Shown in pieces: positions 1-16,990 of a stretch of DNA of 64,000 nucleotides; within the stretch, counting starts at the first letter, position 1; each line of letters begins with the position of its first letter. A program made the translations under genes and the position numbers. The notes below the pieces were generated by a model. It saw only the letters and a program-made list of their open reading frames with translations, had not been told where the DNA came from and made no database searches. The DNA is taken from the NCBI RefSeq assembly GCF_003340495.1, contig NZ_QASA01000001.1, forward strand, positions 3,348,001 to 3,412,000, given 5' to 3'. The stretch is from Adhaeribacter pallidiroseus (GTDB taxonomy: Bacteria; Bacteroidota; Bacteroidia; Cytophagales; Hymenobacteraceae).

Positions 1-376
1 TTTCACCCATTCGTATTAACAAGCTTCCATTAAATTGGTAAAAGGCAATGGACTTGTATATCTTCTGTTCCTATCTGTACACTCCTGCCGAGCGGCACAG
101 CCACCGCATATTCTTGTATTATAACAGTAAAATTTAAAAAAGGGATTGAAGCGCGTTAAAGCAGCGGTTGCTCTACAAAGCCTCTAACCTAACTTTTTAC
201 ATTAAATTGGTAATTGCAGTTTTTGAAAGCATATATTTTCTGTAAAACCAGGTAAAGTATGCAGAAAGAGGTTGTTTTTACATGGGTTAATGATTTATTA
301 ACAATAAACCTCAAACTTTTTTCTAACACCGCCGCGCTATTTGCGTTTAGGGAAAGTAAACCAAAAGTTCTACTCC
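1..376. other. Intergenic region, no gene seen
   Basis: No convincing reading frame is present before the first receptor gene. The stretch is AT-rich and probably holds the promoter and leader of the TonB-dependent receptor starting at 377. I see no exact TTTG-N19-TAnnTTTG promoter in it. A possible upstream gene lies outside the window. Confidence 0.5.
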
Positions 377-3300
377 ATGAAAATCTTTTACTTCCGAATT
401 CTATCTCTTCTGGTTTTTTCAATTTTTTTTCAAAAAAGCTATGGTCAGGGAGTTACAACCTCTTCGTTAACCGGTACAATCACCGATGCCAACGGCGGTG
501 AACTTCCGGGGGCTACCATTGTGGCGGTACACACGCCCTCAGGAACGCGCTATGGTACTACCAGCCTGGTAGATGGCCGTTATACCATCCCCAATATGCG
601 GGTGGGTGGTCCTTACACCATAGATATTACTTTTGTGGGTTATCAGGAGCAGCGATCAGAAAATATCTTTTTGCGCCTTGGCGAACCATTTGTGTTAAAC
701 GGACGCTTATCAGAATCGGGCACGGCCTTGCAGGAAATAGTGGTCTCGGGTACCCGTAATCCGATTTTAAATGCCGAACGAACCGGCGCCTCTACCAACA
801 TCAGTCGTCAGCAAATAGAAACTTTGCCTACCATTAACCGGAGTTTGCAGGATTTTACCCGCTTAACCCCCCAGGCCAACGGCAATAGCTTTGGCGGTGC
901 CAGTAACCGTTTTAATAATATCACCATCGACGGGGCGGTAAATAACGATGTTTTTGGTTTATCTAGTTCGGGTACGCCGGGGGGCCAGGCCAGCACCCAA
1001 CCCATATCCTTAGATGCTATACAAGAAATTCAGGTAGTATTGGCTCCGTACGATGTTACCTATGGTAATTTTACCGGTGGAGGGGTAAATGCGGTTACGC
1101 GGTCCGGCACGAATGACTTTGAGGGCTCTATTTATACTTTTATTAAAGGTGAAAATTTTGTAGGTAGAAACCCAGTCAGTAATGCAAAATATACTACGTT
1201 CTTAGATAACCAATACGGGTTCCGTTTAGGTGGGCCCATTATTAAAAATAAGCTGTTCTTTTTTGTCAACGCCGAAAGAGGACGGCGCGAAGCGCCTTTA
1301 GCCTTTAACGCCGGTGAAAATGGATCGGCTATAACAGTTGGTACAGCGCAAACCATCCGCGATTATACTTTAGCTACTTACGGTTACGATGTGGGCGGCT
1401 ACGGGCCCGTGGATTTAAAAAGAGACAACGACAAACTTTTTGGCCGCATCGATTGGAATATTTCGGATAAACACCAGTTAACCATCCGGCACAATTACAT
1501 TACCGCTTCGGACGATAATTTAACCCGTTCGGGTACCAGCTTCTCGTTTGGCAACAATGCCTACCAGTTTAGTAACCAGCAAAACATTTCGGTGCTGGAG
1601 TTAAGAAGTAATTTGTCGGCTTCTTTATCTAATAATTTAATTTTGGGTTACTCCCGCATCCGCGATAGCCGTGAAATTGCCGGCAGCCTTTTCCCGCAAA
1701 TCCAAATCCGGAACCTGGAAGGTGTTTCGTCCAACAGCGCTTATTTTGGTTCCGAAAGAAGCTCCGTCGCGAACGAACTCGACCAGGATATTTTTGAAAT
1801 TACCGATAACTTCCGGTACGCTTTGGGCAAGCATACTCTAACTTTTGGTACGCACAACGAGTTTTTTAATTTTCGCAATTTATTTATCAACAACGTGGCC
1901 GGTCGTTGGGATTTTAATACTGTAGCCGATTATTTGGCCAATAACCCTTTACAAGCTCGCGCTACTTATTCCATTGTTCCGGGTGAAAGCCGGCCAGCTG
2001 CCGAATTTAGCGCGGCTCAGTTAGGCGTTTACGTGCAGGATGTATTTACCATTACGCCAGCCTTTCGCCTTACTGCCGGTGTGCGTTTAGATGTACCTAT
2101 TATCAGCGATAAACCTTTAAATAACCCAATGGTGAGCACCACTTTTCCGGGAGTTCAAACCAATGAAACGCCCAGTGGTAAATTATTGTGGGCTCCGCGG
2201 GTTGGTTTTAACTACGACGTAACCGGCGACCGTTCGGTGCAGATTCGGGGTGGCGCAGGTATTTTTACCGGCCGGGTACCGTTTGTGTGGCTGTCGAACC
2301 AATTTGTGAACAGTGGCTTGGTGTTGGGTACGGTAGATGTTACCGATAACAATACTACTCCTTTGGTAAATGAAGTAAATGGTGGTAGAGGATTTCAGCC
2401 CGATCCGAACCAGCAGCAAAGTGTTGGGGGTCCTGTTTCCACGGTTGAAATAAACGCGGTTTCGGAAGACTTCCGGATTCCCCAAGTAGCCCGCTTTAAC
2501 TTAGCGACCGATGTGCAATTACCGTTTGGCATTGTAGGAACCCTAGAAGGTATTTATTCGAAAACCATGAACAACGTTACCTACCGCGACATTAATCTGT
2601 TACCCTCCACCAGCACCATTAATGCGGAGTATTCGGGTGGAGCGGATCTGCGGCCCCGGTACAGCACCGCTCCTGCGGGTAAAGTAAGTACGGCTTATAC
2701 CAACGCCATTTTTTTAGATAATACCAATAAAGGGTACAGCTATAACTTTACGGCGCAATTGCAGAAAAATTTTGATTTTAACATAAACGGCATGTTTGCT
2801 TATACTTACGGCCGCTCCACCGACGTAAACTCCGGAACCAACAGCACGGCTTTATCTAACTGGGAATTTGTGCAAATCGTCCGGGATCCCAATAATCCTC
2901 CTTTGACTACTTCGTACTACGAAACCCGCCACCGTTTAGTAGGAAGTTTGGGCTATAACGTTACCTACGGACCCAACAAAGCTTTTGGTACGGGCATTAA
3001 TTTGTTTTACAGTGGCTTTTCGGGCACCCCGTTTACTTATGTATACAACGGCGACCTAAACGGCGATGGCCGGCAGGGAAACGATCTGTTGTTTGTACCG
3101 GCGTCGTTGGAACAAATTAATCTGGTAGATGTTCGGAATAGCGCGGGCGTGGTAACGTTGAGCCGCGACCAGCAATGGCAAAATTTAAACGCGTTTATCG
3201 AAAATGATCCGTACTTACGGGAACAGCGGGGCAAATATACCGAGCGGAACGGAGCCCGTACTCCCTGGGAACACCACTTTGATGTACGCGTAACCCAGGA

Positions 3301-3550
3301 TTTAGGCGTATTAACCGGGAAGTATAAAAATACCCTGCAAATAACGTTTGATATTTTTAACGTGGGTAATTTAATTAACAATGATTGGGGACGCTCTTAC
3401 TTTGTGTCGAACCAGGCGCTATCCCTTATTTCTACCGCTCGTGGCGTAAACGGCTTTAATTTTAACCGGACCAGTCCGGTCGGCTACGACTTGTCTGATT
3501 TAAGTTCAAGGTGGCAAGGCCAACTGGGTATCCGGTATTTATTCCAGTAA
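377..3550 (+). CDS. TonB-dependent receptor, Oar-like, with N-terminal carboxypeptidase regulatory-like domain
   Basis: Outer-membrane beta-barrel that imports a large or scarce substrate using TonB/ExbBD energy; the substrate cannot be read from sequence. The ATG at 377 begins a signal peptide (MKIFYFRILSLLVF, cleavage near SYGQ). The in-frame TTG at 341 would put a charged extension before it, so 377 is preferred. Residues about 30-115 form a carboxypeptidase-regulatory Ig-like fold (LTGTITDANGGELPGATI), followed by a plug (ETLPTINRSLQDFTRLTP) and a long barrel ending in a C-terminal aromatic (RYLFQ). At 1057 residues it has the usual length of this Oar-like family, which lacks a SusD partner; none is adjacent here. 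A strong terminator follows at once. A decayed relative lies immediately downstream. Confidence 0.9.
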   Translation: MKIFYFRILSLLVFSIFFQKSYGQGVTTSSLTGTITDANGGELPGATIVAVHTPSGTRYGTTSLVDGRYTIPNMRVGGPYTIDITFVGYQEQRSENIFLRLGEPFVLNGRLSESGTALQEIVVSGTRNPILNAERTGASTNISRQQIETLPTINRSLQDFTRLTPQANGNSFGGASNRFNNITIDGAVNNDVFGLSSSGTPGGQASTQPISLDAIQEIQVVLAPYDVTYGNFTGGGVNAVTRSGTNDFEGSIYTFIKGENFVGRNPVSNAKYTTFLDNQYGFRLGGPIIKNKLFFFVNAERGRREAPLAFNAGENGSAITVGTAQTIRDYTLATYGYDVGGYGPVDLKRDNDKLFGRIDWNISDKHQLTIRHNYITASDDNLTRSGTSFSFGNNAYQFSNQQNISVLELRSNLSASLSNNLILGYSRIRDSREIAGSLFPQIQIRNLEGVSSNSAYFGSERSSVANELDQDIFEITDNFRYALGKHTLTFGTHNEFFNFRNLFINNVAGRWDFNTVADYLANNPLQARATYSIVPGESRPAAEFSAAQLGVYVQDVFTITPAFRLTAGVRLDVPIISDKPLNNPMVSTTFPGVQTNETPSGKLLWAPRVGFNYDVTGDRSVQIRGGAGIFTGRVPFVWLSNQFVNSGLVLGTVDVTDNNTTPLVNEVNGGRGFQPDPNQQQSVGGPVSTVEINAVSEDFRIPQVARFNLATDVQLPFGIVGTLEGIYSKTMNNVTYRDINLLPSTSTINAEYSGGADLRPRYSTAPAGKVSTAYTNAIFLDNTNKGYSYNFTAQLQKNFDFNINGMFAYTYGRSTDVNSGTNSTALSNWEFVQIVRDPNNPPLTTSYYETRHRLVGSLGYNVTYGPNKAFGTGINLFYSGFSGTPFTYVYNGDLNGDGRQGNDLLFVPASLEQINLVDVRNSAGVVTLSRDQQWQNLNAFIENDPYLREQRGKYTERNGARTPWEHHFDVRVTQDLGVLTGKYKNTLQITFDIFNVGNLINNDWGRSYFVSNQALSLISTARGVNGFNFNRTSPVGYDLSDLSSRWQGQLGIRYLFQ

Positions 3551-3611: not shown

Positions 3612-4042
3612 GATCTCTAAATTTTTAAAATTCTGTTCAAATCCACCTAGTAATCGGAATTAAGCTTATTCAACTTTCCGCTTCAGGTTACCCCTCCTAT
3701 TAATAATTATTCGTCACGCCCATTTCCCTAGTTCAGGAGAAAACTTAACCAGACAAGTGCTCACCAGTCGGAAACGTTCCACCTAGATTCATAAGAGTAC
3801 TTTCGGCAAAAATTTTAAGCAGAACTATTTTGGAGTGTTGTAGAGTATAACCCGCTATGCTTCAATTATATTGCTTTTTAACATATTAAAATTTCAAAAA
3901 AAATCCTCTATTTTTAAAATTATTTTAAATTTTAAGCTGATTGTTTATTTATTTTGTAAATGTTTCAAAACTTTCTTAACAATTAAATAACATTCATTTA
4001 CCCTCCGAGCAGTAATTTTGCACGCAAATTCAAACATTTTTT
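3612..4042. other. AT-rich intergenic region with a candidate -7 promoter element
   Basis: No open frame is supported. TAATTTTG at 4013-4020 matches the Bacteroidota -7 consensus TAnnTTTG, about 23 bases before the ATG of the broken receptor. No clear TTTG -33 element is seen at the right distance. Confidence 0.45.
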
Positions 4043-7000
4043 ATGAAACACCTTTATCTAAGGCTGGCTGTTTTTTTATAACAGTTGGCATTCCCATTCA
4101 TTTTACGGTGGCACAGACCTCGACTACCTCCGCCATGAACGGTTTGATTACCGATAAAAGTGGCGACGGCTTACCTGGTGCTACTGTTATTGCTATTCAT
4201 ACCCCTACCAACACCCAGTATGCCGCTACTACCAATAACGATGGCCGCTACAACATTCAGAACATGCGGGTAGGCGGGCCTTATACCGTTAAAACCACCT
4301 ACGTAGGTTACCAAGACCAAACCCGCGAAAACATTACCTTAAGCTTAGGCCAAAATTTAAAATTAGATTTTACCATTGCCGAGAGCAGCATTAGTTTGGG
4401 CGAAGTAGAAGTAGTAGGTACCCGCAGCACCGTTATTAACGCCGACCGTACCGAAGCCGCAACCAATGTAACTGCCTAGCAAATTCAAACTTTACCTACC
4501 CTTAGCCGCAGCATTCAAGATTTTACCCGCTTAACGCCGCAAGCAAATGGCAACGGGTTTGCCGGTCGCAGCAGTTCTTTTAACAATATTTCCATTGATG
4601 GTGCTTTGTTTAACAACGCTTTTGGTTTATCCGGCAATTTAGGGGGTCAGACCAATGTCAATCCGATCAGCTTAGATGCGATTGACCAGATTCAGGTTCA
4701 GATTGCGCCTTTGATGTTCGGCAAGGCTCTTTTACCGGAGCCGGTATTAACGCGGTAACCCGCAGTGGCTCCAACGACTTTTGTGGTTCGGTGTATTATT
4801 TTTCGCGGACGCCGGGTTTGGTGGGCCGCGATGTAGGCGACCAGCATTTACCAAAACAGCAGTTTGATCTGAGCCAATTAGGTTTCCGGTTAGGAGGCCC
4901 TATTGTAAAAGATAAATTATTCTTTTTTGTGAATTACGAGCGCGAAAGACGCACGGACCCTGCCACTACGTATTTAGCGCGTCGCCCGGGATTAACCGGT
5001 ACGAACGTTACCACCGTAGATGCCGCGGTACTGGATGAACTTAGCTCGTTTTTAAATCAGAAGTTTGGTTACCAAACGGGAGGTTACGAAAATTACGACT
5101 TTGAAACCAATTCGGATAAGGCTACCGTTAAAATCGACTGGAACATTAACGCGAAAAGCAACTTTTCTTTAAAATACAACTTTCTTGATTCGTACCGCGA
5201 CCAGATTATCAGCAACAGCGGTGGTCCGTCCGGGAATCGCCAACCCGGCGTAAACACTTTGCCTTTCCAGAGTTCCGGCTACGCCATTAACAACAATTTT
5301 AATTCGTTTATTGGTGAGTTAAACACGAAAATCAGCGACAAATACGCGAACAACTTAATTGTAGGTTACACCGGTTTGCGCGATTTCCGCAGTCCGGCCA
5401 GTAGCTTGTTCCCGCTGGTGGAAATTGAAAACGGTGCTGGTTTAAGCTTAACCTCGTTTGGTTACGAGCCTTTTACCTCTTTTAATATTCTGAACTCCGA
5501 TATCTACCAGTTAAGCGATAACTTAACTTTAGCTTTAGGCAAACACGTGGTGACCTTAGGTACTTCAAACGAAGCCTATCATTTCCGGAATGGTTTTGCC
5601 CCGAACTACTACGGCCGTTACCGGTACCGGAATATTCAGGATTTTTACGATGCCGTAAACACCAACACCCCCGGGCCAGTCAGTATCAGGTACAATACGC
5701 GGCTAATCCCAACGGTGTTTTTCCGTACGCCGATATCAATGCTTTGCAGTTAGGTTTTTACGCGCAGGACGAATTCTCGCCCCTGGAAAACGTAAAGATC
5801 ATGTTTGGTCTCCGCGCCGATATTCCGATTATAAACACGGAATTACCGCGTAACCAACCTTTAGAGAATCTTACTTTCCGGGAAGGTCGCCAAATAGATG
5901 TAAGCCAGTTTCAGAAAACCACGCCCTTGTGGTCACCGCGCGTCGGCTTTAACGTAGACGTGAACAACGATCAGAAGACGCAGGTACGCGGGGGAACTGG
6001 TATTTTCACCGGCCGGGTGCCCTACGTGTGGATTTCGAACCAGGCGAGTAATAACGGGGTACTGTTTGGCTCCATTTCCAACAGCGCTTCCGGTACGGCC
6101 TTGGTGCCTAATTTATTCAGCCCGAACGTAGGCACCACGCTGGACCAAGCCGACACCAACCCGAATTTACCCGCCAGCCGTACCGCCAGTTCTTCTTATA
6201 ACATTGCGGTTACCGCTTCGGATTTTAAATTTCCGCAGATTTTCCGGACCAATATTGCCTTGGATCAGAAACTGCCAGGAGGCATTGTGGCTACTTTAGA
6301 AGGTATTTTCACCAAAGATTTAAACGCGGTTTATCACCAGAATATCAACTTACCCGAAGCAAGCTTCCGGCCCAATGGACCCGATAACCGCCCTACGTTC
6401 TGGGTAGAAAACCGAGCTGTGACCAGTGCAATTACTTACGCGGCCGTAAACCGCATTTACGGTGGCGTTATCCCCTCAAACAATACCCCCGAAAAACCTA
6501 ACATTTCGGATGTGATTTTAATGCGGAACTCTAATAAAGGATATTCTTACGCCTTAACTGCCCAACTTCAGAAACAATTCGAGAATGGCCTGTACGCCAT
6601 GGCGGCTTATACCTACTCGGACGCCCGCTCCGTGAACGATGGAGGTTCTATTGCTCAATCGATCTGGCGCGACCGCCAGGTTTCCGGTGACCCGAATGCC
6701 AACGTGCTGAGTTATTCTAACTTTTTACAACGCCACCGCATTGTAGCGGCTATTTCTTACCGCAAAGAATACTTAAACCGCTTAGCTACTTCGGTGGGTT
6801 TATTCGTAGATGCCGGGCCTAATTTCCGATATTCGTATACCTACGCCGGCGATATGAACGGCGATGGCCAGAGCAACGATTTAATTTATATTCCGCGCGA
6901 TGCCAGCGAAATTGTGTTTGAAGACGTAAAAGATGCCCGCACCAGCGAAGTACTTTATTCAGGCGCCGATCAATCCCGTGATTTTTTCAGCTACGTTAGC

Positions 7001-7393
7001 CAGGACAAATATTTGCGCGAAAACCAAGGCAAATACGCCGAATGAAATGTCGCGGAATCGCCGTGGGTATCGAACTTCGATTTAAAAATAACGCAGGATT
7101 TATTCCAGAACATTGGCCGTAAGAAAAACACCTTACAGTTTTCGTTAGACGTGTTTAATTTGGGTAACCGGTTAAATTCAGATTGGGGCGTACGCGATAA
7201 TACCATCCGGGCCTCCATCTTGTCCTTCCGTCGCATTGAAACAGCCGCAGGACCAAACCAGGGGAAACCTGTATTCCAGTTTCCTTACCAGGATGCCAAC
7301 ACCAAACAAGTACTATCCACCTCCTACCGCGATGCTACCACCGAAGCCAGCCGTTGGCGGGCCCAGTTAGGCATCCGGTATATCTTTAACTAA
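4043..7393 (+). pseudogene. Broken TonB-dependent receptor, tandem relative of the gene at 377-3550
   Basis: The protein pieces follow the upstream intact receptor domain by domain, from signal peptide through regulatory domain and plug to the last barrel strand (QLGIRYIFN). Five lesions are visible. A frameshift lies in the T-run inside the signal peptide (about 4071-4078), since the ATG at 4043 reads MKHLYLRLAVFL then stops. TAG at 4477-4479 replaces a Gln codon in the plug. One base is missing near 4711, where the relative has the APYDV motif. Another frameshift lies near 5680, after which the frame reads QYQVQYAANPNG. TGA at 7043-7045 replaces an Arg codon near the C-terminus. Codon use is like the neighbour's, so decay appears recent. 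With five independent lesions, sequencing error alone is unlikely. Confidence 0.9.
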
Positions 7394-8525: not shown

Positions 8526-8750
8526 TTGGATGATTACTTCGAAATACCCGTAACTTATAAAAAGGAAGAACACGACTTTAGAATCCGGTTGATCATGACC
8601 GATTACACGCATCAGTTTGAAGTAGATGAAGATCAGAGTTGCGGGGCCTTGGTGGATGAGGCAACCTTGCAGAGGAACCCTAAGCTGGCTAAGGCATTGT
8701 TACAAGTTATTGCCGAGATACTTGATCAATGTAAAGATATTGTTGTTTAG
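8526..8750 (+). CDS. Small acidic hypothetical protein, 74 aa
   Basis: Encodes a soluble acidic protein (FEIPVTYKKEEHDFRIRL, then DEDQSCGALVDEA). A beta-rich N-terminal half is followed by a helical C-terminus (AKALLQVIAEILDQC). The only available start is TTG at 8526, because an in-frame stop lies at 8514. An AAGG stretch sits a few bases upstream. No family is recognised. Its neighbours are other small orphan genes. Confidence 0.5.
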   Translation: MDDYFEIPVTYKKEEHDFRIRLIMTDYTHQFEVDEDQSCGALVDEATLQRNPKLAKALLQVIAEILDQCKDIVV

Positions 8751-9721: not shown

Positions 9722-9778
9722 TTTATACCGGATTTCAGGTTAATTCAGCTAAACTAAACTAAAAAGCAAGAAGATAAA

Positions 9779-10080
9779 AAAAAATTATTTTATTAACCTG
9801 AAAAATGAGAACCTGCTGGCATTTGCCGGCTTGTGGGACGAACGGATAGATACCAGTTCCGGCGAAATGGTGCGTTCTTCTACCATCATCACTACTCAAG
9901 CCAACGAACTAGTAAAGCCCATCTATCCGGAACGTATGCCGTTATTTTGGATCGCGACACCGAAAAATGGTAGATTTCTAATGATTTTAGTAAGCAAGAA
10001 TTTCTCGATTTACTACAACCTTTCGATCCCAGAAAGATGCAAGCCCAACCCATTCCAGGTACTGCTTTTTTCCCTAGTCC
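9779..10080 (+). pseudogene. Remnant of an SRAP (YedK/HMCES-like) protein
   Basis: SRAP proteins cross-link covalently to abasic sites in single-stranded DNA and are often found with SOS genes. Only the middle and end of the domain remain. The frame reads NYFINLKNENLLAFAGLW, then STIITTQANELVKPIYPERMP, both hallmark stretches of the family. After RMP a one-base frameshift moves the coding frame to VILDRDTEKW, where TAG replaces the next codon. The sequence then continues ISNDFSKQEFLDLLQPFDP and QAQPI. The N-terminus with the catalytic Cys2 is absent. It lies at the head of a row of decayed DNA-damage polymerase genes, which supports a common origin. Confidence 0.82.
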
Positions 10081-10159
10081 AAAGTAATTTATTGCTGTTC
10101 CGGAAAGAATAAATTCACTTGGTAAATAACTAAGTTTCTCCATCAACGTAACCTCCATT

Positions 10160-10333
10160 ATGGATGGACAAGAATATAGTGAGTTAAGCAAACGTTTTGG
10201 GGAATTAACGCTTAAAGAAAATTTAAGCCCAGCAGAAAAAGCAGAATACGAAGATCTAAAAAAAAGAATGACTCTGCTTAGTCCGGACGATAATACGGAA
10301 GATTTTCTGGAAAGTGACGCCAGAGGTAATTAA
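10160..10333 (+). CDS. Small charged hypothetical protein, 57 aa
   Basis: An ATG-initiated frame (MDGQEYSELSKRFGELTLKE) ending in FLESDARGN, hydrophilic and predicted helical with many Glu and Lys residues. It is intact although its neighbours on both sides are broken. No family is recognised. No strong ribosome-binding site is seen. It could be a functional orphan or a chance frame in a decayed region. Confidence 0.45.
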   Translation: MDGQEYSELSKRFGELTLKENLSPAEKAEYEDLKKRMTLLSPDDNTEDFLESDARGN

Positions 10334-10406
10334 TTCTTAACCTCGTTCTTGCGGGTAATTATATCGTTATAGCGTTTTACTTTCACGTACCCCCTTTAAT
10401 AGTCGG

Positions 10407-10748
10407 CTATTTCAGGTTAGCAAAGACCTTATCGGCCTCCGCTTCGTTGAGATTATCTGTTATCATTAAGTCTTTTTCGCTGTTTTCTTTGCGGAGTACC
10501 ACTTTATAAACCAGTTGTATATGCATGGCATGTTGCTGATGGAAAGCTATAGCCATTTGGCAAATTTATCTAATCCGTTTTCTTCAGGCATTTCCAACAC
10601 CAGCTACTCGCCGGGGTACTTAAAATCCGGAATAATCAGGTGCGTTTCTAGCCATTTAGCTTGTTTCACCTCTGGTACTTGCGCTAGGTGCTGCACTTTA
10701 AATTTCTTGTACTCTATTAACTTGCTACTGTGCTTTTACTAAATACAT
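10407..10748 (-). pseudogene. Decayed unknown gene on the minus strand
   Basis: Reading the minus strand, protein-like segments lie in order but in different frames. MYLVKAQ is followed by a stop and a shift. Next comes FKVQHLAQVPEVKQAKWLET, then LIIPDFKYPGE before a stop, then LVLEMPEENGLDKFAKWL. The last segment is an open 39-residue frame beginning MHIQLVYKVVLRKENSEKD and ending VFANLK (10407-10526). Together they suggest a protein of roughly 110 residues broken by at least two stops and one or two shifts. No family is recognised. An alternative is that only the last 39-residue frame is real. Confidence 0.45.
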
Positions 10749-10876
10749 GAGATAACAAGAGCTACTTCTCCTGTGGTAGAAGTAATTGCCTCGTGAAATG
10801 CACCAATCATTTTAATTTTACTATATTAAAAGCCAAATTATTCGAAAAATATTTAGTTATAATCTAATATATTAAG

Positions 10877-10923
10877 TTATTGCTGACATTATTAGTATTT
10901 ATTGCTACTAATGTCAGCAATAA
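10877..10923. repeat. 19-bp inverted repeat upstream of the polymerase remnant
   Basis: Arms 10877-10895 and 10905-10923 match at 18 of 19 positions (TTATTGCTGACATTATTAG against the complement of CTACTAATGTCAGCAATAA) around a 9-base loop. There is no T-run after it, so a terminator is unlikely. Its position just before the Y-family polymerase remnant suggests an operator or a fossil regulatory site. Confidence 0.7.
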
Positions 10924-10930
10924 CGTGAGA

Positions 10931-11725
10931 CATGCTGCCGGAAAACCTTACTTTTCGAGTTGTTGAAACGTTTACGTAATTCGCAGCTCGCCGGCAAGCC
11001 CCTCATCACCGGGGGCTTGTCCGACCGGGGCGTAGTAACCAGTTGCAGCTGCGAAACCCGGTGTTACGGGGTACACGCGGGCATGCCTATCCGGATGGCG
11101 AAGCAACTATGCGAGGAAGCACTCATTTTGCGGGGCGACATGGAAGCCTACAGCAAGTACTCGGCTGACGTTACCCAAGTGATTGCCGTTAAAGCGGAAT
11201 CTACGAGAATTGACAAGCACTATCTGGACGTAATGGGCGTGGACCGTATCTTTGGTACCTGGAAGTGGACCAGTGAACTCCACCAGACCATTATGCGAGA
11301 GACAGGTTTACCCATCTCCTTTGGCCTATCGGTGAATAAAACCGTTTCCAAGATTGCTACGGGCCAGGCCAAACCCAATGGCGCCTTACAAGTGCTTATT
11401 ACCTTAAATAACCTGCTGGTAGCGATGACGGAGAAGCTGACTTTTATGCTGCGGCAACAAGAAAAGCTTACTAGCTGCATTACGGTAAAGATTCGCTACG
11501 CTAACTTTACCACGTACACCCAGCAGATAATGATCCCCTACAACGCGGACGATCACATCCTGATCCGTAAAGCCAAGGTGTTGTTTTAAAGCCCTATAAC
11601 CGCCGTCTGCTGATTCGCTTGCTGGGCGTACGGTTGAGCCACCTGGTTCAGGGCTTTCAGCAGATTGATTTATTTGAAGATACCACGGAATGCGTGAACC
11701 TCTACCAGGCCATGGCAGAAGGTAC
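10931..11725 (+). pseudogene. dinB: Remnant of a Y-family DNA polymerase (Pol IV/DinB type)
   Basis: Pol IV enzymes copy damaged DNA with low fidelity. Recognisable stretches are LRNSQLAGKPLITGG, SCSCETRCYGVHAGMP, MAKQLCEEA, LRGDMEAYSKYSADVTQVI, LDVMGVDRIFG and LPISFGLSVNKTVSKIATGQA, which are palm and finger signatures. Four kinds of damage are visible. The N-terminus is frameshifted near 10965-10970 and has no start. The expected acidic metal ligand before HYLD is changed (RIDKHYLD where SIDEHYLD is usual). After ALQV about 100 residues are missing, including the helix-hairpin-helix region. A frameshift at about 11586 separates the rest of the little-finger domain (NRRLLIRLLGVRLSHLV, then QIDLFEDT). 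It runs almost directly into a DnaE C-terminus. Confidence 0.88.
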
Positions 11726-11727
11726 GC

Positions 11728-12027
11728 ATGGTGGGTACTTTGGTAACCACCATACAGTTACGCAACATTCGCGGAGAACTCATGCAGTTTGGCACTTTCC
11801 TGGACACCAACAATGACTTTTTTGATACCGTCCACTTTCCGTCATCCTTACAAGTGTGGTCCTTCAAAGGCCCTGGCGTATACTTGCTCCTAGGCCGGAT
11901 TACGAAAGAGTTTGGCTTCCCGAGTATGGAAGTAGAAAAAATGGACAAACTCCCTTTCAGGAAAAACATCAGCCTGCAGCGGTTAAGCTTGCCTAAGGAA
12001 TCAAAGGTAAATAAAAGTATTAGGTAA
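11728..12027 (+). pseudogene. C-terminal fragment of a DNA polymerase III alpha-type protein (DnaE)
   Basis: The roughly 100-residue frame reads MVGTLVTTIQLRNIRGE, then MQFGTFLDTNNDFFDTVHF, then GVYLLLGRITKEFGFPSMEVEKM. This is the terminal OB-fold region of Bacteroidota DnaE-type polymerases, where FGTFxDxxGxFFDTVHFP and EEFGFPSxEVEKM are typical. The remaining roughly 900 residues, including polymerase and PHP domains, are gone. It joins the polymerase remnant upstream without a gap, so a large internal deletion is likely. Adjacent dinB and dnaE genes are a known arrangement of damage-inducible mutagenesis cassettes. The TGA-free tail after the fragment (residues 80-99) is probably not native. 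Confidence 0.85.
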
Positions 12028-14671: not shown

Positions 14672-16939
14672 TTAAAGTTTGCTTATTACCACGCGCTTGG
14701 CATACACTTTTTCTTTCGAATAAATTAAAGCGGTATACACCCCCGAACTTAAAAAGGCCACATTCAGATGGACTTGTTTGGAATTAGCAGGTTGTATCAA
14801 TACCGTACTGCCAGCGCTATTTACTACCTGTACTTTATTTATGATGTGTTCATGGCTAATCTGCAAATAATTACTTGTTGGGTTTGGATACGCTTTTAAT
14901 GCCGGGTGCTCTTCTTCCGGTAAACCTATTACTACTTCTTCCAGGTTATTAATGGTAATCAGATGCGTAGACTCATACGTGAGGTTGCCCTGATCTTTGG
15001 TTTGCAAGCGAATGGTATAACTGCTTTTCGTTTCGTAATCAAAGGAAACCGCCGCGCGTAGTTCATTACCCGAAACAGTAAAAGAAGCATTATCCTCATC
15101 CCCGTATCCAACTACTAACTGGTACGTATGGCTATCTGGATCATCTTCATCCAAGGAATTAAGCAGGCCAATAACCGCCCCTTTTTTGTTATTTTCATCT
15201 ATTTCCTGAGCAGAAAGCCAAATATCCTGGGGCGCTTCGTTCAGGTCTTTTACCTGAATCGTGAATGCTTTTTCAAAAGTACCATAGCCTTTCCGATCGT
15301 TGGTTCTTACCCGGATATGATAAACAGTCTGGTATTCATAATCTGGAGAACTCCAAAGTTCCAACTTGTTGTCTTGTATTAAAAAATAATCATTATCATC
15401 ATCTCCCTCTCCTTTAACCAAGGTGTACGTATGGGTATCTGCCGCATCGGCATCGGTGGTAGTAAAAGTACCAATGGTACTACCATACTCTGTATTTTCG
15501 GGTATCGTGGCAACCGAAAGAGCAAGATCGGTAGGAGCCACGTTCGGTTCCATGCTCAACTTAATAATCCAGTAATCATAAAGGCCCTTGCTATTCTCGG
15601 TTTTATCTTCTTCCGCGTCTGCGAAACTAGATCCGCCTAATACAAAACCACCATCCTGGGTTAAAGTCATAGTGGTTAAGATGTCCGTCCAGGATGTGCC
15701 AATGGTACGATCCCAGATCTTGTTGCCTTGGGCATCCAGCAGGAGTACCCAATAATCATCCAGAATATCCGTTTCCTCCGATTTATCACCATCAGCATTC
15801 GAATCAGAATGTCCGGCGACTAAATATTTACCTTCGGCGGTTACAGCTAAAGACACTAATTTGTCGGTGTAATAGCCGCCAAAAACCTTATCCCAAGCTT
15901 TACTTCCATCGGCATTCAGTTTTACTAACCAATAATCCTGACTGTAGTCTTTGCTATCCTGGGTTTTATCCCCGCTACTATCCGAAGAAGAACTGCCCCC
16001 TAACAGAAAGCCACCGTCCGGGGTGGGTACAACTGAGCTTAATTTATCGTTATAATCCCCGCCGAAGGACTTATCCCACAGCTTCTTACCCACTGCATCT
16101 ATCTTAACCAGCCAGTAGTCACTGGAGCCTTGCGATTCCTGGGTGCGATCGCCACTTTGGTAAGAATAAGAAGTGCCACCCAAAATATACCCTCCATCTT
16201 TGGTTGGCAAAAGCGCAGCTAATTTATCGGCATCATCCCCGCCAAAGGTTTTATCCCACTCTTTACTGCCGTTGGCCTTAATTTTAATAATCCAATAATC
16301 GGTTCCCCACGAACCTTTATTGTCTTCGGTTTTATCCCCGCCCCTAAAGGAATACGATGATCCTCCCAGAATATACCCGCCGTCTTTGGTTGGTTGCAGT
16401 ACCGTTAGGGTATCGGCATCGTAGCCGCCAAAGGTTTTATCCCATTCTTTACTACCATCGGCCCGGAGCTTAACAATCCAGTAATCGGCACTGCCCCGGG
16501 AATCTTGCGATTTATGGCCGCTCTTATCCGAGTCAGAGGTACCACCCAGGATATAGCCCCCATCCGGCGTTTGTTGCACTACCTTTAATACGTCTGTTCC
16601 CGTACCACCAATGGTTTTGTCCCATTGTTTCTTACCAGAAGCATCTAATTGAACAATCCAATAATCTTCCCAATACCCGATAGCGTTCTGGGATTTATCA
16701 CCCCCTTTATCACCAAAAGAAGTTCCGCCCAGAATATAGCCGCCATCTTTGGTCAGTTGCACCGAAGCCAGATTATCGGACCACTCCGAGCCAATGGTTT
16801 TGTCCCACTGGATAGTTTGACTTAAAGCTAAAATAGGAATGCCGCTCAGGAGCCAGAGCGTTAAGGTTAGCGGCCGCCATAAGGGGAGCACAGGTAAGAT
16901 GTTGACCAATAAGTAAATGCCGCGTAAAGGTTTTTTCAT
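14672..16939 (-). CDS. T9SS-exported protein: seven tandem repeats, two cadherin-like domains, C-terminal sorting domain
   Basis: Secreted or surface protein probably exported by Sec and then the type IX system. The ATG at 16939 starts MKKPLRGIYLLVNILPVLPL; an upstream TTG-type extension was discarded. Seven repeats of 55-62 residues each begin with WDKTIG/WDKTFG-like words and continue GGYILGGTS...DYWIVKL. Seven such units suggest a seven-bladed propeller. Acidic DKSGD-like loops may bind calcium. Two cadherin-like repeats follow (APTDLALSVATIPENTEYG, and APQDIWLSAQEIDENNKKG), each with DxD-type acidic loops. The last 80 residues (ALKAYPNPTSNYLQI to YAKRVVISKL) form a type A sorting domain. 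It is flanked by long non-coding regions. Confidence 0.85.
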   Translation of the reverse strand: MKKPLRGIYLLVNILPVLPLWRPLTLTLWLLSGIPILALSQTIQWDKTIGSEWSDNLASVQLTKDGGYILGGTSFGDKGGDKSQNAIGYWEDYWIVQLDASGKKQWDKTIGGTGTDVLKVVQQTPDGGYILGGTSDSDKSGHKSQDSRGSADYWIVKLRADGSKEWDKTFGGYDADTLTVLQPTKDGGYILGGSSYSFRGGDKTEDNKGSWGTDYWIIKIKANGSKEWDKTFGGDDADKLAALLPTKDGGYILGGTSYSYQSGDRTQESQGSSDYWLVKIDAVGKKLWDKSFGGDYNDKLSSVVPTPDGGFLLGGSSSSDSSGDKTQDSKDYSQDYWLVKLNADGSKAWDKVFGGYYTDKLVSLAVTAEGKYLVAGHSDSNADGDKSEETDILDDYWVLLLDAQGNKIWDRTIGTSWTDILTTMTLTQDGGFVLGGSSFADAEEDKTENSKGLYDYWIIKLSMEPNVAPTDLALSVATIPENTEYGSTIGTFTTTDADAADTHTYTLVKGEGDDDNDYFLIQDNKLELWSSPDYEYQTVYHIRVRTNDRKGYGTFEKAFTIQVKDLNEAPQDIWLSAQEIDENNKKGAVIGLLNSLDEDDPDSHTYQLVVGYGDEDNASFTVSGNELRAAVSFDYETKSSYTIRLQTKDQGNLTYESTHLITINNLEEVVIGLPEEEHPALKAYPNPTSNYLQISHEHIINKVQVVNSAGSTVLIQPANSKQVHLNVAFLSSGVYTALIYSKEKVYAKRVVISKL

Positions 16940-16990
16940 TCTGATTGCTGTTGTGCGTAAACGAGAGTAGTACAAGAGAAAAAAGCACAT

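Follow-up and report, generated by a model that had tools for sequence, protein, structure and literature searches.

The ImuA-ImuB-DnaE2 mutasome couples a Y-family protein, the catalytically inactive ImuB, to a DnaE2-type polymerase in a damage-regulated system. An arrangement in which SRAP (DUF159/YedK) shares an operon with DinB and sometimes with a DnaE paralog as well is described in passages of a 2013 account (Aravind et al.; PMC3765255), and passages of later papers describe a Bacteroidetes PolY2-DnaE2 pair (PMC6511836; 2019) and a DnaE2B-PolY-RecA set (PMC12926913; 2026). According to passages of a further study, the operator of LexA-like repressors from Bacteroidetes, Hymenobacteraceae included, is CTAA-N5-TTAG, which was tested by experiment; binding was lost when either dyad carried substitutions (PMC8565304). 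Going by these passages, both the gene set and the operator that concern us are already published. Here we describe a degenerate SRAP-dinB-dnaE locus within a 64,000-nucleotide stretch of the Adhaeribacter pallidiroseus chromosome (G000:C1:3348001-3412000, hereafter the window; the genome is 99.97% complete in 3 contigs). In all likelihood the locus is a dead, paralogous copy of a cassette for SRAP, an active Y-family polymerase and a DnaE2-type polymerase of the SOS response, which was redundant and decayed; a duplication or a second acquisition in this lineage is its most likely source. Literature searches returned no publication on this window locus, which is no proof that none exists.

Three fragments lie collinearly on the + strand of the window between 9753 and 11977 and follow the order of the intact cassette, SRAP, dinB and dnaE. 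The original prediction, made from the sequence alone, had placed these remnants in a row on one strand at 9779..12027. Profile matches for SRAP and DinB and the intact cassette of the same genome agree with that arrangement, but the bounds were slightly off: the DNA comparison finds similarity to the intact cassette at 9753-10080, 10847-11393, 11399-11715 and 11718-11977. The features of the region are as follows.

9753..10087, + strand: remnant of SRAP (229 residues when intact), of which roughly the final 110 are left; N-terminal half absent
10160..10333, + strand: open reading frame (ORF) of 57 residues between the SRAP and dinB remnants, kind unassigned (ORF list)
10337..10527, - strand: decayed small gene (DNA match to genome G003)
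10867..10933, no strand: promoter region of dinB; contains an inverted repeat whose 29-nt arms are 83% complementary
10932..11586, + strand: dinB remnant, first part (Pfam IMS, alignments, tblastn pieces)
11587..11729, + strand: second part of the dinB remnant, read in a different frame; residues ~323-369 of 387
11716..11977, + strand: dnaE remnant, about the last 80-90 residues, 81% DNA identity to the intact copy

The intact cassette is found at ~C1:3937003-3941955 on the minus strand of the same chromosome (locus L060), and its DNA is 77-84% identical to the remnant piece by piece. It encodes an SRAP of 229, a DinB of 387 and a DnaE of 988 residues, which match the Pfam SRAP, IMS/IMS_C and DNA polymerase III alpha domains, respectively; dinB and dnaE overlap by a few bases. 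The intact DinB retains FDLD and SIDEHYLD, and the PDFDID and KLD of the intact DnaE align with PDID-TD and KMD of the solved alpha subunit 3e0d; we take the residues of FDLD/SIDE and of these DnaE motifs to be catalytic. The idea that DnaE had lost its third catalytic Asp was dropped, since KLD aligns with KMD. Inspection by eye revealed no RecA-like ORF around the intact copy. Intact versions in this chromosome and in relatives bear out the prediction of one former damage-response cassette made up of SRAP, dinB and dnaE. The persistence of an intact cassette of the same subtype contradicts the accompanying claim that the whole unit had been lost, and UmuD, named there in the comparison with known cassettes, does not belong to this one; the umuDC-like pair of this genome lies elsewhere.

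Each of the three genes is damaged in its own way. The SRAP remnant has a frame change near 9941-9944 with an in-frame stop shortly after it and lacks the N-terminal half, all as predicted and all evident against the intact SRAP. Residues encoded by 9774-9941 match Pfam SRAP (expectation value E 4.2e-11), and this first piece has 85% amino-acid identity to residues 130-182 of the intact protein; the second piece (9944-10087, one stop read as X) has 71% identity to residues 182-229 and gave no profile match in Pfam or NCBIfam. DNA identity to the intact copy is 77.8% over 9753-10080. The absent half would have held Cys2, presumably the catalytic residue. In dinB the ATG is retained at 10932, contrary to the expected loss of the start, but ~26 nt are gone just behind it together with a change of frame, which in the alignment removes the FDLD segment; SIDE is altered. 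The segment 10948-11586 matches Pfam IMS (E 1.7e-29) and IMS_C (E 1.2e-8). An in-frame internal deletion of 273 bp has taken out ~91 residues, somewhat fewer than the ~100 first estimated, and the second frame change that had been noted is confirmed: the piece behind it is 85% identical to residues 323-369 of the intact DinB, with a Pfam E of only 0.17. What remains of dnaE is, as anticipated, its C-terminal end, closer to the last 80-90 residues than to 100. Its 11716-11964 segment has 79.5% amino-acid identity to residues 892-974 of 988 in the intact DnaE of this genome (E 1e-35), and the DNA similarity reaches slightly past residue 974; on its own the piece matches no Pfam or NCBIfam profile. 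Residue ~369 of dinB abuts residue ~892 of dnaE directly, a junction such as a deletion of ~2.7 kb, which we infer to have been a single event, would leave. Every one of the three genes shows frame changes, large losses or both, and the remnant very probably makes no working protein now.

Comparison of the dinB sequences places the remnant beside the intact copy. In a DNA tree of ten dinB sequences it joins the intact copy of its own genome with support of 95.2/95 (Shimodaira-Hasegawa-like approximate likelihood-ratio test, SH-aLRT, and ultrafast bootstrap, UFBoot), on a branch of 0.236 compared with 0.071 for the intact copy. Over 194 dinB codons the synonymous divergence (dS) between the two is 0.75, the other five pairs of the four sequences having values of 1.4-2.4. 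Of 172 positions on which three intact copies agree, 19 are changed in the remnant; the mirror test gives 3 of 156 for the intact copy. The ratio of nonsynonymous to synonymous divergence (dN/dS) is 0.128 for the remnant and the intact copy and 0.032-0.040 for intact pairs. These values suggest relaxed constraint on the remnant and fit a period under constraint that was followed by decay after redundancy.

Several observations weigh against this account. In a protein tree of 19 rows, the grouping of the remnant, the intact copy and a copy on a plasmid of Adhaeribacter swui is weakly resolved (83/77), and the remnant is marked as a long branch. One stretch of dinB is no farther from the A. swui plasmid copy (84.0%) than from the intact copy of its own genome (83.5%). 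The dN/dS of the remnant against the other two intact copies is 0.05-0.06, and therefore much of its divergence arose under constraint. Finally, an empty site could not be defined: a neighbouring 125-residue ORF is present in four of the ten genomes searched, this one included, but the other three (G001, G002 and G006) share only ~0.4-0.5 kb around it, and in G001 the contig breaks off right after this ORF. The stretches around it in these three genomes contain no SRAP, DinB or DnaE at E 1e-4.

Relatives show what an undamaged cassette looks like. A DinB search of 59 genomes returned, besides the remnant, 20 loci at >=51% identity, of which 18 were examined (those of G039 and G050 were left out). 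The dnaE gene follows dinB in 17 of the 18. In nine of them dinB is preceded, at a distance of up to ~1.2 kb and on its own strand, by an SRAP gene (a further locus, L077, is too near a contig end to tell), and six of these nine SRAPs are only 30-37% like the SRAP of this genome. Within the genus, with membership as labelled in the data set, the count is seven of ten loci, so that SRAP at the head of the cassette is not the uncommon feature that it had been thought to be. Two dinB-dnaE loci are present in each of G001, G002 and G004, and one of those in G004 (L061) is on the 116,703-bp plasmid unnamed2 of A. swui KCTC 52873, where the annotation reads SOS response-associated peptidase, dinB and dnaE, all intact. 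A replication initiation gene is ~5.5 kb away, on the side of SRAP opposite dinB. A plasmid collection of 72,556 records yielded five with a match to DinB at E 1e-60; only that of A. swui was above 60% identity.

This plasmid raises the possibility that the copy in the window arrived on a plasmid or another mobile element and then decayed, rather than arising by chromosomal duplication. An intact cassette of the same subtype on a 116.7-kb plasmid, with a replication initiation gene in the vicinity, gives indirect support to that view, and to the mobile origin proposed in the original prediction, but we regard it as the less probable route. The DNA tree groups the remnant with the chromosomal copy (95.2/95), a scan of neighbouring ORFs (at most ten window ORFs or pieces besides the remnants) turned up no recognisable mobile-element gene, and the 3' end of the nearby tRNA-Ala is not repeated in the window. 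The original prediction had also set the cassette beside this tRNA, which is 1.8 kb from the remnant. Integration there was rejected: the window has a single copy of the 22-mer at the tRNA 3' end, and the space that separates the two holds ORFs that relatives conserve. A blastn search of the window with the whole tRNA returned the tRNA itself and one 11-nt match (10522-10532, E 0.79), which corresponds to tRNA positions 30-40 and not to the 3' end.

That the fragments are unrelated and were brought together by separate insertions is highly improbable, although the interval between SRAP and dinB gives some reason to consider it. This interval of ~0.8 kb is missing from the intact cassette of the genome. 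Its 57-residue ORF (10160..10333) has a best Pfam E of 0.1 and no NCBIfam match; the decayed gene at 10337..10527 has 74% DNA identity to G003:C2:5006554-5006745 (E 1.6e-26), the sole such match in seven other genomes of the genus. In G003 the relative immediately follows the 3' end of an intact SRAP gene and is on the opposite strand. This SRAP (L094:10758-11444), of the same subtype as that in the window and next to a small convergent gene, has no dinB or dnaE in the surrounding 20-kb stretch. SRAP might thus be a neighbour of dinB-dnaE and not part of one transcript. However, order and strand agree with those of intact cassettes, the dinB-dnaE junction is what one deletion would produce, and every piece is nearest to a single cassette subtype (L060, L061 and L063). 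An error of sequencing or assembly that mimics broken genes can practically be dismissed: single frame changes alone could be errors, but not the ~16-23% DNA divergence from the intact copy, the large deletions and the changed operator, in a genome of such completeness and contiguity.

The operator sets the remnant apart from intact loci. Exact CTAA-N5-TTAG occurs in the 220 bp upstream of dinB at all 18 intact loci (29 sites); in the same regions the highest count among 63 other palindromes with a similar composition was two sites, and 200 mononucleotide shuffles gave at most one. The 220 bp upstream of the remnant dinB contain no exact site and three with one mismatch. The place that matches the operator reads CTGACATTATTAG (10883-10895), with one half changed, and falls inside the inverted repeat. 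By eye, this repeat appears to be missing from the intact copy in the alignment, and its downstream arm resembles the operator arm in inverted form, a pattern expected from template switching. Elsewhere in the genome the exact motif stands ~70-80 bp upstream of both the umuDC-like pair and a gene for an S24 protein with what by eye is a helix-turn-helix-like N-terminus; the stretch examined at the other DinB-like locus (L035, 34% identity) has none. No exact site was found within 250 bp upstream of any of ten SRAP genes, and because SRAP has no such site of its own, dinB-dnaE looks like the LexA-controlled unit, with SRAP as its neighbour. A whole-genome count of the pattern TRCTAANNNNNTTAGYA in eight genomes of the genus (35 sites, compared with 23 for the reversed control) showed no useful excess and was rejected as a definition of the regulon.

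A second sample consisted of the best 80 of 512 DinB relatives, taken as named loci in a single scan; it includes some of the same contigs as the genomes above, and the two sets are not independent. Within 250 bp upstream of dinB (available at 77 of these best 80 loci) the exact motif was present at 11, which are all 11 of the loci from Adhaeribacter, Rufibacter and Pontibacter, and at none of the 69 others; GGA-N5-TCC was found upstream of one. In this best-80 set dnaE is downstream of dinB at 45 of the 72 loci with room for it. SRAP is upstream at five of 67 with room, all five among the motif-bearing 11, as scored with a profile built from Hymenobacteraceae SRAPs that more distant members may escape.

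Taken together, we envisage that redundancy would have permitted decay of one copy through frame changes, small deletions and the 273-bp internal deletion, that a loss of ~2.7 kb would have fused dinB to the end of dnaE, and that the LexA-type operator of the decaying copy would have changed as well. The intact copy presumably does the work. By analogy with known systems of this kind, a LexA-like repressor would leave CTAA-N5-TTAG after damage, dinB-dnaE would be expressed, the active Y-family polymerase and DnaE would carry out error-prone synthesis, and SRAP would cross-link to abasic sites.

Other features lie around the remnant. An intact TonB-dependent receptor-like gene (341-3550) is followed at 4018-7393 by a second one in three frames, with 54%, 39% and 37% identity to the first, which looks like a broken, diverged paralog. 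A 74-residue ORF at 8526-8750 belongs to a small family with no Pfam match; its relatives are ~2-2.4 kb away from SRAP in two genomes (G001, G006) and ~0.8 kb away in G003, and there are family copies elsewhere too. Convergent with the remnant, 14672-16990 encodes a protein with a secretion sorting tail that resembles (55% over 300 residues) the product of L061:3920-4813, itself convergent with the A. swui plasmid cassette. Synteny drawn from sorting-tail proteins, which may be common, is only suggestive.

The locus itself carries little weight, being an ordinary pseudogene locus left by a redundant SOS cassette that died. It does serve to illustrate the decay of such a cassette, with a change of operator, loss of a catalytic segment and one large loss while the sister copy is kept, and it is a pointer to turnover in the copy number of mutagenic polymerases in Hymenobacteraceae, which could be counted across strains. 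Isolated C-terminal ends of dnaE were noted at G006:C1:5326885-5327028 (L064) and G008:C18:455024-455239 (L076), using a query confined to the C-terminus that other kinds of remnant would escape. No DinB match was found in the 14-kb stretches around them; L064 also shows faint similarity to SRAP (E 0.007) on the opposite strand, and G008:C17:549256 is the position of another weak dnaE piece, the third (E 1.5e-5). The two isolated ends are perhaps further decayed cassettes. Because two loci occur in each of G001, G002 and G004, one of those in G004 on a plasmid, and isolated dnaE ends occur in G006 and G008, we tentatively suggest, with more doubt than conviction, that SRAP-dinB-dnaE cassettes of Adhaeribacter turn over by repeated gain, by plasmid too, and decay, and that the dosage of mutagenic polymerases consequently differs between close species.

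Compared with known systems, the cassette resembles ImuA-ImuB-DnaE2 in combining a Y-family protein with a DnaE2-type polymerase, but differs in that the intact DinB keeps FDLD and SIDE and does not have the character of an inactive ImuB. It also resembles the PolY2-DnaE2B pair, the active-site motifs of which are present in the intact copy only, the remnant having lost FDLD and having an altered SIDE; the likeness is one of motifs, and the passages of PMC6511836 and PMC12926913 say nothing of an SRAP gene heading that pair. SRAP, dinB and dnaE stand in this order on one strand in the remnant, in its intact counterpart on the chromosome and in the cassette of the A. swui plasmid. Relative to the operons in the passages of PMC3765255, the window copy is decayed, and the intact loci considered here have a LexA-type site belonging to dinB itself. 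That site links them to the Bacteroidetes LexA SOS regulon as the passages of PMC8565304 present it, the same motif standing at 18 intact dinB loci, the S24 regulator-like gene and the umuDC-like pair, whereas the site of the remnant in the window has one changed half.
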